A DNA stretch of 49,584 nt from Candidatus Zhuqueibacterota bacterium. Lineage in GTDB: Bacteria; Zhuqueibacterota; Zhuqueibacteria; Oceanimicrobiales; Oceanimicrobiaceae. The DNA is taken from assembly GCA_029262005.1 (NCBI GenBank), contig JAJDAG010000189.1:1-49584 (forward strand), read 5' to 3'. The translations under genes were made by a program, and so were the position numbers. Under the pieces are notes generated by a model that saw only the letters and a program-made list of their open reading frames with translations, did not search any database and had not been told where the DNA came from. Within the stretch, counting starts at the first letter, position 1. Each line of letters starts with the position of its first letter. Below, in pieces: positions 18,828 to 23,607 of this stretch.

Positions 18828-18855
18828 AAATGCTTGTTACAAAAAACAAGCATTT
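18828..18855 (+). terminator. Possible terminator of the accB-accC-gcvH operon
   Basis: AAATGCTTGTT (18828-18838) pairs perfectly with AACAAGCATTT (18845-18855) around a 6-base loop. The stem ends in three T residues but no longer U tract follows, so termination may be weak. It is the best hairpin between gcvH and the strong promoter at 18932. Confidence 0.45.
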
Positions 18856-18931
18856 CCGTGGCATGAGATTTGAAGTCATCTTTACGGTTCTTGAAATTGT
18901 GGGGATTCATTCCAAAGCCAAGAAAAATTGC

Positions 18932-18960
18932 TTGACATCTTTATTTGAAGTGTCTATATT
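18932..18960 (+). promoter_or_regulatory. Strong sigma-70-type promoter
   Basis: TTGACA (18932-18937), a 17-base spacer and TATATT (18955-18960) make one of the two best promoter matches in the window. Transcription should start near 18967, giving the structured RNA annotated next. Confidence 0.85.
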
Positions 18961-18966
18961 AATAAG

Positions 18967-19171
18967 TTAAAATAATGAGGAGTGCGCCTATATAAGTTTC
19001 GTTAAAGGTTTTGGGTTTTAACTTTGAAGTTCAGCCTGCATTGCAGCTTGAACAAATCGTAATTTGTAGAATACCTTAGTACCTTTGAACGAATCTTGTT
19101 AGGTGGTGATCCGAATGTTTGAAGGTAATTCTACGATGCGTAGAGTTGAGACCTCAGCATTCGGTTTTTTT
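18967..19171 (+). ncRNA. Structured RNA of about 205 nt, sRNA or attenuating leader of porV
   Basis: This unit runs from the predicted start to a U-tailed terminator and contains no ORF of note. Predicted helices: GTTAAA (19001-19006) with TTTAAC (19017-19022); a long hairpin GTTCA-CTGC (19029-19039) with GCAG-TGAAC (19043-19053); and GTAGAAT-ACCTT (19066-19077) with AAGGT-ATTCTAC (19122-19134, one bulge). TGAGG (18976-18980) pairs with CCTCA (19152-19156), bringing the two ends together. The 19066/19134 helix excludes both the small hairpin CTACG/CGTAG (19131-19143) and the terminator stem (19111-19164), as an antiterminator would. An 11-base near repeat, TTGAACAAATC and TTGAACGAATC, occurs at 19048 and 19085. 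I do not recognise a known riboswitch. A divergent 6S-like RNA (similar size, own promoter, paired ends) is an alternative. Confidence 0.6.
19111..19171 (+). terminator. Intrinsic terminator of the structured RNA, upstream of porV
   Basis: CCGAATGTT (19111-19119) pairs with AGCATTCGG (19156-19164) with one G-T wobble. The stem encloses a second hairpin (CTACG 19131-19135 with CGTAG 19139-19143) and is followed directly by seven T residues. The porV start codon lies only 38 bases further, so read-through would be required for expression from the 18932 promoter. Confidence 0.75.
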
Positions 19172-19209
19172 ATTTAATGAATAATATTAATGTTTTTGGA
19201 GATAATGCA

Positions 19210-20244
19210 ATGAAGAAACTCACATCTCTCATCACCATCCTCCTCGTATTGGTGATAGGTGCCCCAAGTGTGTTTGCTGTTAGTGAGGCCGCGGTGCTGT
19301 TTTTGCTGATCTCGCCACATGCACGTGTTGGTGGAATGGGTGAGGCTTTTGTTGGACTGGCTGATGATGTTTCTGCCATCTATTGGAATCCTGCAGGACT
19401 CGCTTTTCAAAGAGGCAAGCAGTTCACTAGTATGTATCAACCTCTGTTACCCCAATTTAACCTCGATGATTTATATTATTTATTTGGCGCTTACAGGCAA
19501 TCGTATGAGGGGCTCGGCACTGTCGGGTTTAATGTGACGTATGCCAACTATGGGCAGCAGATCATAACAGACGAAACCGGCCCGGATGCATTGGGAACCT
19601 TTAACAGTAATGAGTACGCCCTGACATTCTCCTATGCGACGCTACTTTCTGAAAATACTGGTGTTGGTTTGAACATCAAGTATATCCGTAGTAACCTGTC
19701 AGAGGTCGGGGCAGGCGTAGAGAAAGGGGATGGCAAGGCCAATGCTTTTGCCGTCGACATTGGTTTTCTGCAGAAAAATTTGCTAATAAATCGACTGAAT
19801 TTTGGGTTGAATATCGCCAACATCGGTTCGAAAATTACTTACATTGATAATGCTCAGGCTGATCCTTTGCCTACTAACCTCAAGGCCGGTTTTGCCTACA
19901 TTGCCCTGGATCAGGAGTATAATCGACTTACTTTTCTGGCGGATGTCAATAAATTAATTGTCAATCGCCACGAAGATGGTTCTGTTGACTCTGTAATTAA
20001 AGCATTTGGAACGGCTTGGCAGAACAGCAACTACATTTTAAATTTTGGTGCAGAGTACTGGTATGCCAACCTGATTGCGCTTCGCGCGGGATACTATCAT
20101 GATCCCGATGGCAAAGTAAAATATCTGACCATTGGTGCCGGCCTGGTATACTCCATCTATCAATTTGATTTTGGCTACATTTCGGCTGGGGACTCACATC
20201 CTCTTTCAGACACCATGCGTTTTTCATTGACGATTGGCCGATAA
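19210..20244 (+). CDS. PorV/PorQ-family outer-membrane protein
   Basis: The start is ATG 19210, preceded by TTGGAG; the in-frame ATG at 19177 overlaps terminator DNA and would spoil the signal peptide. The 344-residue protein has a signal peptide (residues 1-23, ending SVFA). The family signature follows: ARVGGMGEAFVGLADDVSAIYWNPAGL appears in separate blocks at residues 38-64. The remainder is a FadL-like barrel of amphipathic strands (for example FGLNIANIGSKITY and FGAEYWYANLIALRAGYY). PorV is the outer-membrane component that receives type 9 secretion cargo; other members of this family are of unknown role. Proteins with T9SS-type sorting domains at 20455 and 45245 make a secretion role sensible here. 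Confidence 0.88.
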   Translation: MKKLTSLITILLVLVIGAPSVFAVSEAAVLFLLISPHARVGGMGEAFVGLADDVSAIYWNPAGLAFQRGKQFTSMYQPLLPQFNLDDLYYLFGAYRQSYEGLGTVGFNVTYANYGQQIITDETGPDALGTFNSNEYALTFSYATLLSENTGVGLNIKYIRSNLSEVGAGVEKGDGKANAFAVDIGFLQKNLLINRLNFGLNIANIGSKITYIDNAQADPLPTNLKAGFAYIALDQEYNRLTFLADVNKLIVNRHEDGSVDSVIKAFGTAWQNSNYILNFGAEYWYANLIALRAGYYHDPDGKVKYLTIGAGLVYSIYQFDFGYISAGDSHPLSDTMRFSLTIGR

Positions 20245-20454
20245 CAAAATACTGCTTTATAAATTGTGGCGCAGAGACACGGTTGCGAAGACTTTTAGCT
20301 TGCCGGCGCAGCCGTGTCTCATGATGGTCACGCGACACTACATTCCAATTTCAAAAATGAGCCTTCCCTTGTGTTAGGACTACGCTCCAGGCTGACGCTT
20401 ACGAGGAGGTGGTGTTTTAATAAAAATATCAATGTTCGGTTGGCTGGGAGATTT

Positions 20455-23400
20455 ATGCGGTTCTTAAATTCGTTGTTGCTCGCAAGTTGTTTTCTAATGC
20501 AAACCTCAACCCCTTATGCCAAGGGACTGGTTCCTGCTTATCACACAAATCGACATTCAAATCGCAACATACTCGGTGCCGGCTCTAATGCATTAGAAAA
20601 AAATGCACATGAATCCGTTACATTGAAAGTACTTGCTATTCGGGTTGATTTTCAAGAGCAGGAAAATCGTTTAACCACGGGTAATGGCAAGTTTCAGTTT
20701 TCCGCAGATACTGCCAAGACTATTGATGTGCCGCCGCACAATTTGAAGTACTTCGCAGATCAATTGACTGCATTGTCCAATTATTATCATGTGGCATCGC
20801 GTGGTCAGTTAACGATAGCAACAACCGTATATCCGAGTTTGTCGGAGAGCAGCTTCACCGTTTCTCAGCCAATGAGTTATTATGTGCCTGCAGGTGATGA
20901 CAAGTTGCTGGATACACGCCTGGCTGAGTTTTTTCAGGAGGCTTTTCAGGTTGCGGATTCGGTTGGCAATATTGATTTTTCTGCATTCGATGCCTTTATT
21001 GTTTTTCATGCGGGTGTTGGGGGTGATTTTGCATTCGACTTCGATTCAACACCCCAGGACATGCCTTCCGTGTTTTTGGATAGCAAAACCCTCACAAAAG
21101 AAATCGGAAATGCAGATCCAACCTACCGGGGCATATCTGTAAATGGGGGTTCATTTTTCATTCAGGATGGTATTATTCTTCCTGAAACCCAATCACAAGA
21201 CGGGTTTGAAATTGGACTTCTGGGCACGATGACCATCATGTTTGGCAATCAATTGGGTGTGCCCTTGCTTTTTAATCCCGACAATGGACGGTCTGGAATT
21301 GGTGTGTTTGGTTTGATGGATCAGGGGTCTGGTAATTTTTTTGGCCTGGTTCCTGCCTTGCCGTGTGCCTGGACAAGGGTTTTTCTTGGCTGGGAAACAG
21401 CTATTGAAGTCACGAACGGTGAGAACTTCATGGTCGCTGCGCCGGGCGCTGCAAACGAAAACAAAATTTATAAAATCCCAATTAATTCTCAAGAATATTT
21501 CCTGATTGAAAATCGGAACCGCGATATCAATGGCGATGAAATTGCTCTGGGCAGCGATGCTGACGGTCGCCGCGTTGAGTTTCACTGGGATGACAACGGG
21601 CAACGACTCCTGGGCGAAAGTCCGGACGGACAACCGATTGGTGTAATAACACAAATTAGTGAATATGACTTTGGCCTGCCTGGTTCTGGAATCCTGATTT
21701 GGCATATTGATGAAAATGTCATTGCAGCGAATTTTTCCGCCAATCGTGTTAATGCCAATCCTGAACATCGTGGTATTGACCTTGAGGAAGCAGACGGGGC
21801 TCAGGATATTGGTCAGTTTTATGGTTTTTTGAGTGCGGGCTCAGGCGCAGAAAATGGTGTTGTCGAAGACATGTTCTGGGATTCCAATACAATAAATATT
21901 TGTATCAATGCAGCAAATCCGCAAGAATGTTTTTCCGGGACTGCCCCTGAAGGTAGTGCTGTGGAATTCACACCGTTCACCATGCCAAACAGTCTCTCGA
22001 ACAGCGGAGCAGATGCGCAGATTTTTATTACTGACTTCAGCCAACCTGATTCGATCATGACGTTCACTGTGAAAAGCGGGCTATCCCAGGCAGGGTTTCC
22101 AGCCCCAACAACTGTGACGGGACATGGAATGACGGCTACCGTAGCTGGTGACTTAGATGGCAATGGTAGCCAGGAAATTGTTGTTGCGGAGCGTGAGGGT
22201 GGTAGAGTTTTCGCATGGCGCGTTGACGGTAGTAAAGTGATTGAAAATGACGATGAGGTTGCTGTTTTTGCACAAGTGCAAGGGAACGCATTCTCTCCGG
22301 CACTGGCAATGATGAATGGTCTGCAACTTGTAGTCGTTTCATCGACTCAAGGTGTTTCTGGTTTTACAACCATTGATAGTGATTCTGATGGGCGTGCGGA
22401 TTTGTCCTTTGAATACACTTCTTCCGATACAATCCGAACGGCCCCAATGATAGTGCAAGGCGCCACAGATTTTGATGTCATTGTGGGTACGGAAAGCGGA
22501 AGTGTTGTCCGTATTTCAAGTAGTGGCGCGGGAATTGTTTTGCAGGATGTTGGTGCTGAGGTTGTGGGTTTTGCCTTGTTGCCGGGTGGCGAAATTTGTT
22601 ATACTGCCGGCAGTAGCGCGGGTTTGATTTCTTCTTCAGGAGAAGCGCTGTGGCAAATTCAAACTGATAACAAGATTTTACATGCTCCTGTTGTCGCAGA
22701 TCTTGATCAGGACGATGAGATTGACGTTGTTTTCATAAGTGAGAATGGTGAGCTGTCTATCGCGGGTGCCAATGGTCAGCTCAGGGACGGTTTTCCACGC
22801 AATTTGGACGTTGCGATTGGCTCCCAACTTGCCGTTGGCAATATAGATGAAGATGGCTTTCTTGAAATTGTTTTTATGTCTCGTGCCGGGCATTTGCTCT
22901 CTGTAAATCATCAGGGCTTCCTGACCGACAATTTTCCCGTTGAGGTTGATCGGCGTTCGACATTAGGTGAAAATGAAGCAACATTTGCTTCACCGGTTTT
23001 GTTTGGGCGACCCGGCCAAGAACAGGCTGAGATTGTTGTTGGGACTGTTGGGAATTCCGTCATGGCGTTTGGGGCAAACGGGCGTTTGGCATCTGGTTTC
23101 CCAATCGCAAGCGGCAATACATCTGTTTCCACGCCATTCATTAGCGATCTCGATGGTGATGGGGATGCAGAGATGGCGATTGCGGCCGCTGATGGATTTA
23201 TGTATGTTTACGACCTTGACCGGGCATTTAGCTCGGGTGCTGTACCCTGGCCAGGTCTCTTTGGTGGTAAAACACATGCTAACTTAAACTTAAAACAGCA
23301 CACAGTTGTTCATCCCGGAGGGAGTCTTTTACCTGCGAAACTTGCTTACAATTATCCGAATCCCACTGAAGGCAGGCAAACAACAATTAGGTACACTTTA

Positions 23401-23607
23401 ACAGGCCAGGCTCAAGTCAAAATACGGATATTTGATCTGAGTGGCTCATTTGTTGATGAGCTTGCAGGACCAGGTTTTGCAAACGTTGAAAATGAGGTAG
23501 TCTGGCCATTGCTGAATGTTCAAAGCGGTGTTTATCTTGCACGTATTGAAGCAGAAAATGACAACGCGAGTGGGCTCGCCATCATAAAGATTGCCGTGGT
23601 GAAATAG
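20455..23607 (+). CDS. Secreted M6-like protein with inactive zinc motif, FG-GAP repeats and T9SS sorting domain
   Basis: The start is ATG 20455 (GGGAG at 20446-20450), which gives a signal peptide MRFLNSLLLASCFLM; the ORF extends upstream without a signal. The 1050-residue protein has an M6 (immune inhibitor A-like) protease fold at about 55-420. The line GTMTIMFGNQLGVPLLFN (residues about 257-274) aligns with the family's AHEFGHxLGLPDLYD, and the next block FGLMDQGSG aligns with WDLMGxG. The HEXXH residues are replaced by Ile-Met-Phe-Gly-Asn, so both zinc histidines and the glutamate are missing and catalysis is not expected. Residues about 560-930 hold FG-GAP/VCBS-like repeats with calcium-loop motifs DLDGNGSQEI and DLDGDGDAEM. 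Residues 960-1050 are a sorting domain (NYPNPTEG, SGVYLARI). It is probably a surface adhesin or binding protein. Confidence 0.85.
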   Translation: MRFLNSLLLASCFLMQTSTPYAKGLVPAYHTNRHSNRNILGAGSNALEKNAHESVTLKVLAIRVDFQEQENRLTTGNGKFQFSADTAKTIDVPPHNLKYFADQLTALSNYYHVASRGQLTIATTVYPSLSESSFTVSQPMSYYVPAGDDKLLDTRLAEFFQEAFQVADSVGNIDFSAFDAFIVFHAGVGGDFAFDFDSTPQDMPSVFLDSKTLTKEIGNADPTYRGISVNGGSFFIQDGIILPETQSQDGFEIGLLGTMTIMFGNQLGVPLLFNPDNGRSGIGVFGLMDQGSGNFFGLVPALPCAWTRVFLGWETAIEVTNGENFMVAAPGAANENKIYKIPINSQEYFLIENRNRDINGDEIALGSDADGRRVEFHWDDNGQRLLGESPDGQPIGVITQISEYDFGLPGSGILIWHIDENVIAANFSANRVNANPEHRGIDLEEADGAQDIGQFYGFLSAGSGAENGVVEDMFWDSNTINICINAANPQECFSGTAPEGSAVEFTPFTMPNSLSNSGADAQIFITDFSQPDSIMTFTVKSGLSQAGFPAPTTVTGHGMTATVAGDLDGNGSQEIVVAEREGGRVFAWRVDGSKVIENDDEVAVFAQVQGNAFSPALAMMNGLQLVVVSSTQGVSGFTTIDSDSDGRADLSFEYTSSDTIRTAPMIVQGATDFDVIVGTESGSVVRISSSGAGIVLQDVGAEVVGFALLPGGEICYTAGSSAGLISSSGEALWQIQTDNKILHAPVVADLDQDDEIDVVFISENGELSIAGANGQLRDGFPRNLDVAIGSQLAVGNIDEDGFLEIVFMSRAGHLLSVNHQGFLTDNFPVEVDRRSTLGENEATFASPVLFGRPGQEQAEIVVGTVGNSVMAFGANGRLASGFPIASGNTSVSTPFISDLDGDGDAEMAIAAADGFMYVYDLDRAFSSGAVPWPGLFGGKTHANLNLKQHTVVHPGGSLLPAKLAYNYPNPTEGRQTTIRYTLTGQAQVKIRIFDLSGSFVDELAGPGFANVENEVVWPLLNVQSGVYLARIEAENDNASGLAIIKIAVVK

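Follow-up and report, generated by a model that had tools for sequence, protein, structure and literature searches.

The porV gene in the DNA analysed here is preceded by a promoter, a structured leader RNA and an intrinsic terminator, and the leader is likely to be a cis-acting transcription attenuator of porV, phylum-wide in occurrence, OFF by default and ON when the conserved 5' strand of the RNA (strand 1) is occupied; there are no expression data. The parts of this arrangement, their conservation and covariation, the conserved competition of two strands (1 and 3) for a third (strand 2) and the position before porV are shown by the comparisons that follow. An initial annotation, made from sequence alone, had proposed an attenuation layout with mutually exclusive stems at this place. 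That observation is confirmed, and comparative evidence (covariation, alignment-free conservation of the strand 2:strand 3 pairing and the absence of a known Rfam family) gives good support to the attenuator reading; the reading is probable rather than proven, there being no experiment and the sensing step not having been identified.

The promoter, the leader RNA and porV

The window is the entire 49,584-nucleotide stretch of DNA that was analysed, and positions are counted from its first letter. Its relevant features are:

18932..18960, + strand: promoter TTGACA-17-TATATT, 11/12 consensus; most relatives have a SigA-like promoter in this position
18977..19012, + strand: strand 1, the conserved 5' strand, GGAG-N3-GCCTATA...TTCGTTAAAGGTTTT; strong sequence conservation across families
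18985..19105, + strand: lower helix of the rod (helix B), 18985-18990 with 19100-19105 and 18992-18996 with 19095-19099, from the minimum free energy (MFE) fold
18998..19093, + strand: upper helix of the rod (helix A), 18998-19009 with 19081-19086 and 19088-19093, G19087 bulged, also from the MFE fold
19010..19080, + strand: apical part of the rod; in alignments neither its sequence nor its length is conserved
19066..19134, + strand: antiterminator, 19081-19090 with 19117-19126 (10 bp) and 19066-19072 with 19128-19134 (7 bp)
19081..19105, + strand: strand 2, the 3' strand of the rod, whose own 19081-19090 is also complementary to strand 3
19111..19171, + strand: intrinsic terminator, with stem 19111-19117/19158-19164 (CCGAATG/CATTCGG), an inner hairpin and a T-run at 19165-19171
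19117..19135, + strand: strand 3, GTTTGAAGGTAATTCTACG, within the 5' half of the terminator hairpin, mimicking strand 1 (own-versus-swapped pairing and shuffle tests)
19210..20244, + strand: porV (type IX secretion outer-membrane protein family), with its ATG at 19210 and GGAG at 19198-19201

The structural claims of the initial annotation hold. The promoter that it called near-consensus ranks first among promoter-like sites over 10 kb and is the sole 11/12 match there; transcription is inferred to start at ~18967-18969. The 205-nt RNA (18968-19172), said to contain several helices, is structured beyond chance: its folding energy is -63.8 kcal/mol, compared with -43.7 +/- 4.0 for dinucleotide shuffles (z = -4.98), none of which is equally stable. 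The MFE architecture is a long rod (18985-19105) followed by the terminator (19111-19171). The terminator stem at 19111-19164, the seven T (19165-19171) and the gene 38 bases on are as described, and the antiterminator at 19066-19134 holds too, better split into its 10-bp and 7-bp pieces. A generic terminator scan did not flag the 19111..19171 terminator, presumably because it admits loops of 3-8 nt only; the structure is backed instead by its conservation in relatives.

The gene 38 nt past the T-run starts at the ATG that is also where the alignment to relatives begins. Its product matches NCBIfam PorV_fam (288.5 bits, cut-off 90) and Pfam PorV (PF19572); for the strict T9SS_OM_PorV equivalog, at 221, it does not reach the cut-off of 250.

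A model of the proposed switch

An attenuator should have its own promoter, a leader and an intrinsic terminator 5' of the gene, as well as conserved mutually exclusive pairings. Both sets of criteria are met. In the proposed mechanism, RNA polymerase starting at the 18932-18960 promoter would produce the leader. In the OFF state strand 1 and strand 2 would form the long rod, so that a free strand 3 would fold into the terminator hairpin and transcription would halt at 19165-19171. In the ON state strand 1 would be kept unpaired, strand 2 would pair instead with strand 3, the strand 1 mimic, the terminator would not form, and porV would be transcribed. Switching in the cell, including regulated read-through, the ON/OFF polarity and a strand-1-binding factor as the trigger are all inferences.

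Covariation and sequence conservation

Two outcomes would have refuted the initial annotation: no conserved covariation in relatives, or a clear match to a known Rfam family. A covariance model of the relatives and a comparison with Rfam bear neither out, covariation being present and an Rfam match absent. In an alignment of 27 sequences, 87.4% of cells are paired. Over the rod and terminator, both partners have changed in 18 pairs (shuffles, 12.0) and in 76 cells (shuffles, 26.0), and neither figure is reached in any of 500 shuffles. A one-column slide of the partner lowers pairing to ~48%. Helices B and A of the rod (helices 1 and 2 of the analysis) covary in relatives, and the terminator is covered by helices 3-5 as well as by the MFE fold. 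These counts come from an alignment fitted to the model and are hence biased towards structure. Some double changes can be read directly: GTTCGAT/ATCGAAC in L018, as against GTTCGTT/AACGAAC elsewhere, and GTGAGCC/GGCTCAC and GTAAGCC/GGCTTAC in L012 and L014. The terminator arms CCGAATG/CATTCGG are unusually invariant in sequence.

Strand 1 is more constant than pairing demands, its consensus being GGAG-N3-GCCTATA, a short variable stretch and then TTCGTTAAAGGT. That it is conserved although unpaired is possible but weakly supported: just six RNAs have a predicted GCCTAT pairing of <0.3, and the exact motif is retained in three of them.

Strands 1 and 3 compete for strand 2

Strand 3, inside the terminator, resembles strand 1, and both are complementary to strand 2. 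In family f1, to which the window belongs, strand 3 is GTTTGAAGGT and strand 1 is ACCTTTGAAC. The target of strand 3 within strand 2 differs by family (GCTCACTTG/CAAGTGAGC in L019, GCTTCTTGC/GCGAGAAGC in L025) and complementarity is retained. An alignment-free measure of this relationship takes every strand 2 and compares its duplex energy with the strand 3 of the same RNA and with those of other families. For 73 RNAs in 21 families, the values are -15.15 kcal/mol with own and -11.27 kcal/mol with other families' strand 3 (reached in 0/5000 resamplings), and the own strand 3 is favoured in 19/21 families. The two without an own-pair advantage are f12, in which the arm call is doubtful, and f20. 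A control stretch further upstream shows no own fit (-9.71 vs -9.60). Strand 2 read backwards also beats its swaps, more weakly (z -3.5 vs -10.5), so that composition explains part of the signal; pairing strand 2 with the terminator's 3' half gives a z of -6.5. Dinucleotide shuffling of the 2:3 pairing, from which RNAs with doubtful or miscalled terminator arms (L022, L026, L040, L092, L113, L117 and L118) were excluded, gives a mean z of -1.6, with 22/66 at p<=0.05 (upstream control, -0.09).

Left unconstrained, the window RNA favours the rod and terminator (-63.8 kcal/mol) over the antiterminated form (-55.0 kcal/mol). With the OFF form better by 9 kcal/mol at equilibrium, switching requires a trigger or co-transcriptional kinetics. 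When strand 1 is barred from pairing in silico, the MFE structure is instead the antiterminated form with its 19066..19134 helices, and no terminator forms. With strand 1 blocked in 54 RNAs, 12.2 strand-3 bases pair with strand 2 in the nascent transcript, up from 4.3, and the mean terminator-stem probability drops from 0.95 to 0.54, as against 0.91 when the apical stretch is blocked; the drop exceeds 0.3 in only 26/54. The 2:3 helix encloses one terminator arm only, and a pseudoknot keeping both may be possible, not having been excluded. Since, moreover, equilibrium folding ignores co-transcriptional kinetics, the ON/OFF polarity is inferred, not shown. A further pairing, of strand 1 with a terminator arm (TTCG with CCGAA), was considered and dismissed as coincidence, the terminator being unchanged where strand 1 changes (L019, L026, f16, f17).

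Distribution across the phylum

A DNA search with the leader yields six relatives, each with the conserved 5' strand and terminator and with porV next. A covariance model built from seven sequences (R1) detects the RNA in 35/63 genomes of the class, and one built from 27 sequences (R2) in 52/82 genomes of the host phylum (KSB1/Calditrichota-labelled). In several genomes missed by the models (f2, f3, f5, f7, f8, f16 and f22) the RNA is visible by eye before porV; in f9 and f11 the same by-eye reading suggests that the element is absent. A strict sequence pattern run over ~85,000 species returns 17 stretches, of which R2 recognises 14; the records of these 14 bear the label candidate division KSB1, Calditrichota or Caldithrix, or no taxon name. 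Exact-pattern matches in Enterococcus, Ornithomonoglobus and a Deltaproteobacteria MAG fail the RNA model and are probably due to chance. R2 matches are thus far confined to the host phylum, with the proviso that other phyla have been covered by the strict pattern only and not by the model.

Relatives preserve the promoter-RNA-terminator-porV arrangement as a whole. Of the 62 loci inspected, 55 have porV directly 3' of the RNA, usually within 20-120 nt, a spacing that leaves little or no room for another promoter. Six of the remaining seven RNAs precede other genes, mostly for surface or secretion functions, and one is at a contig end. Four of the six (L039, L040, L041 and L095) belong to family f10 and precede a lipoprotein (with a choice-of-anchor X domain in the one tested) and then a propeller protein, which hints at a small regulon. 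The others lie before a UDP-glucose/GDP-mannose dehydrogenase with a polysaccharide export protein next (L080, f18), and before a C25 (gingipain-type) peptidase (L092, f21).

Relation to known systems

The initial annotation could match the RNA to no known riboswitch, and that held for the window and for 20 relatives: at gathering scores Rfam gives no match in the whole window (at a loose threshold, only chance matches well under the cut-offs) and none to the 20 relatives. Neither the T-box consensus nor an Rfam T-box match is found in the window RNA or these 20 relatives. In the trp and his leaders, pyr, T-box and transcriptional riboswitches, as in the porV leader, one upstream pairing leaves the terminator free to form and another, alternative to it, blocks it (1:2, 2:3, 3:4). 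The porV leader differs from them in being without a canonical leader peptide, a T-box match or an Rfam aptamer, in having a strand 3 that mimics strand 1, and in being confined, as far as searched, to one little-studied phylum. The put and EAR processive antitermination RNAs are promoter-near RNAs that allow polymerase past terminators; the porV leader, in contrast, has a single terminator, relies on direct strand competition and has no Rfam match of any kind.

The known control of type IX secretion runs through an ECF sigma factor together with a two-component system (PMC4800418). In Porphyromonas gingivalis, gel shifts show SigP, the ECF factor, bound to the porV promoter region, and PorXY controls porV (PMC4800418). 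There too porV expression is controlled, but at transcription initiation, and the relevant sections of PMC4800418 contain no leader RNA. Some of the relatives studied here have an ECF-sigma-like motif, GGAACTTTT and then often, after ~13 nt, GTTTTA or a variant, 5' of porV (L101, L103 and L106 in f9; L043, L044, L045 and L097 in f4; L022 and L023 in f7). Most of the lineages that carry it have no clear SigA promoter. Since it precedes the RNA in f4 and some f7, and occurs also in f9, which has no leader RNA, initiation control and attenuation may be layered.

What might the leader sense?

The initial annotation spoke of an RNA sensor. Taken as a ligand-binding riboswitch this is unproven; a conserved ligand-binding loop is not seen. 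A small-molecule riboswitch nevertheless remains possible, its ligand being neither shown nor excluded: the rod would be the aptamer, the ligand would stabilise the 1:2 pairing (OFF) or loosen it (ON), and the 2:3 helix and terminator would be the expression platform. In its favour, the sequence conservation of strand 1 far exceeds the needs of pairing and the platform resembles those of transcriptional riboswitches; the absence of an Rfam match would imply a new class, which by its nature would match no known aptamer. Against it, no conserved unpaired core, loop or junction is seen, conservation being centred on one rod strand and the apex free in length and sequence, and the associated genes (porV, C25 peptidase, lipoprotein, sugar-nucleotide dehydrogenase/polysaccharide export) indicate no single metabolite. 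A sensor of 30S subunits or translation initiation, in which a 30S subunit bound at the Shine-Dalgarno (SD)-like GGAG and AUA/AUC/AUU of strand 1 would permit the 2:3 pairing, is less likely. GGAG is present in 52/57 RNAs, and AUH, never AUG, follows the GGAG-like motif by 5-9 nt in 52 RNAs (by exactly 7 nt in 43), with no canonical start 4-10 nt past the motif. Yet the GCC preceding AUH is also conserved and is not needed for initiation, the frame after AUH is not conserved (a frame to TAA is kept in only ~30/52), and AUH is absent in some families (f2, f3 and f15).

Two rivals dispense with regulated attenuation of porV. One is that the RNA is a separate regulator, 6S-like or a trans-acting sRNA, that merely lies 5' of porV with a terminator of its own. 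It is a compact ~200-nt rod with its own strong promoter, as 6S RNA is, and with a strong, conserved terminator. But it does not match RF00013, and the host genome has its 6S match elsewhere, outside the window (G000:C45:33769-33949, L008; 47.4 bits, barely above the cut-off of 46.4). This RNA, unlike 6S RNA, precedes porV, to which it remains attached across the phylum, and contains an antiterminator; in a separate RNA the mimicry of strand 1 by strand 3 would serve no purpose. The idea is accordingly improbable, and the 6S-like alternative offered in the initial annotation is not supported. Least credible of all is the reading that the terminator is constitutive and partial and merely fixes the porV level, with no regulation. 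Equilibrium folding does favour the terminator, and a trigger has yet to be identified, but the conserved rod and the complementarity of strand 3 to strand 2 would be left unexplained.

Translated leaders of other kinds were considered and rejected. As to a trp-type leader peptide with a canonical start, none of 57 RNAs has an ATG, GTG or TTG 4-10 nt past the SD-like motif. A non-AUG mini-ORF (AUH NNN NUU CGU UAA), noted in f7, f10, f18 and f23, has a broken frame in f1 (several), f4, f6, f8 and f19. As an observation in itself, the GGAG-like motif followed by AUH at 18979-18992 of the window, and in relatives, looks like a ribosome site that avoids AUG. Searched for in the host genome, a perfect trans-acting complement of strand 1 (CTTTAACGAAN{3,7}TATAGGC) turns up nowhere but at the element; imperfect complements were not covered by that search.

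Significance

If the attenuator reading is right, an undescribed structured RNA family is kept in most of a phylum, nearly always before one gene, and a component of type IX secretion is under RNA-level control, which would be new to the open literature searched. That search turned up no description of a porV riboswitch, type IX secretion attenuation, a KSB1 structured RNA or KSB1 type IX secretion. A bolder reading, which taken as a whole might as readily prove wrong as right, is that the leader belongs to a novel class of sensory leader RNAs, so far seen in a single phylum, and that a metabolite, a protein or the 30S subunit, bound to GGAG-N3-GCCUAUH...GUUCGUUAAAGG, acts as the switch that turns on porV and, in certain lineages, further genes for secretion or surface functions; type IX secretion would then be controlled at the RNA level. 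The strands and base changes for a direct test of the attenuator are now defined, and the strand 1 consensus provides a handle for the search for a trigger.

Neighbouring sequence

Between gcvH and the promoter (window 18829-18856) lies a palindrome, AATGCTTGTTACAAAAAACAAGCATT, without a T-run, which may be the end of the gcvH transcript. The gene 3' of porV (20314-23607) scores 597.7 bits, against a cut-off of 600, as a T9SS-dependent M6-like inactivated metalloprotease; its product also has a type A C-terminal sorting domain and is likely to be type IX cargo.
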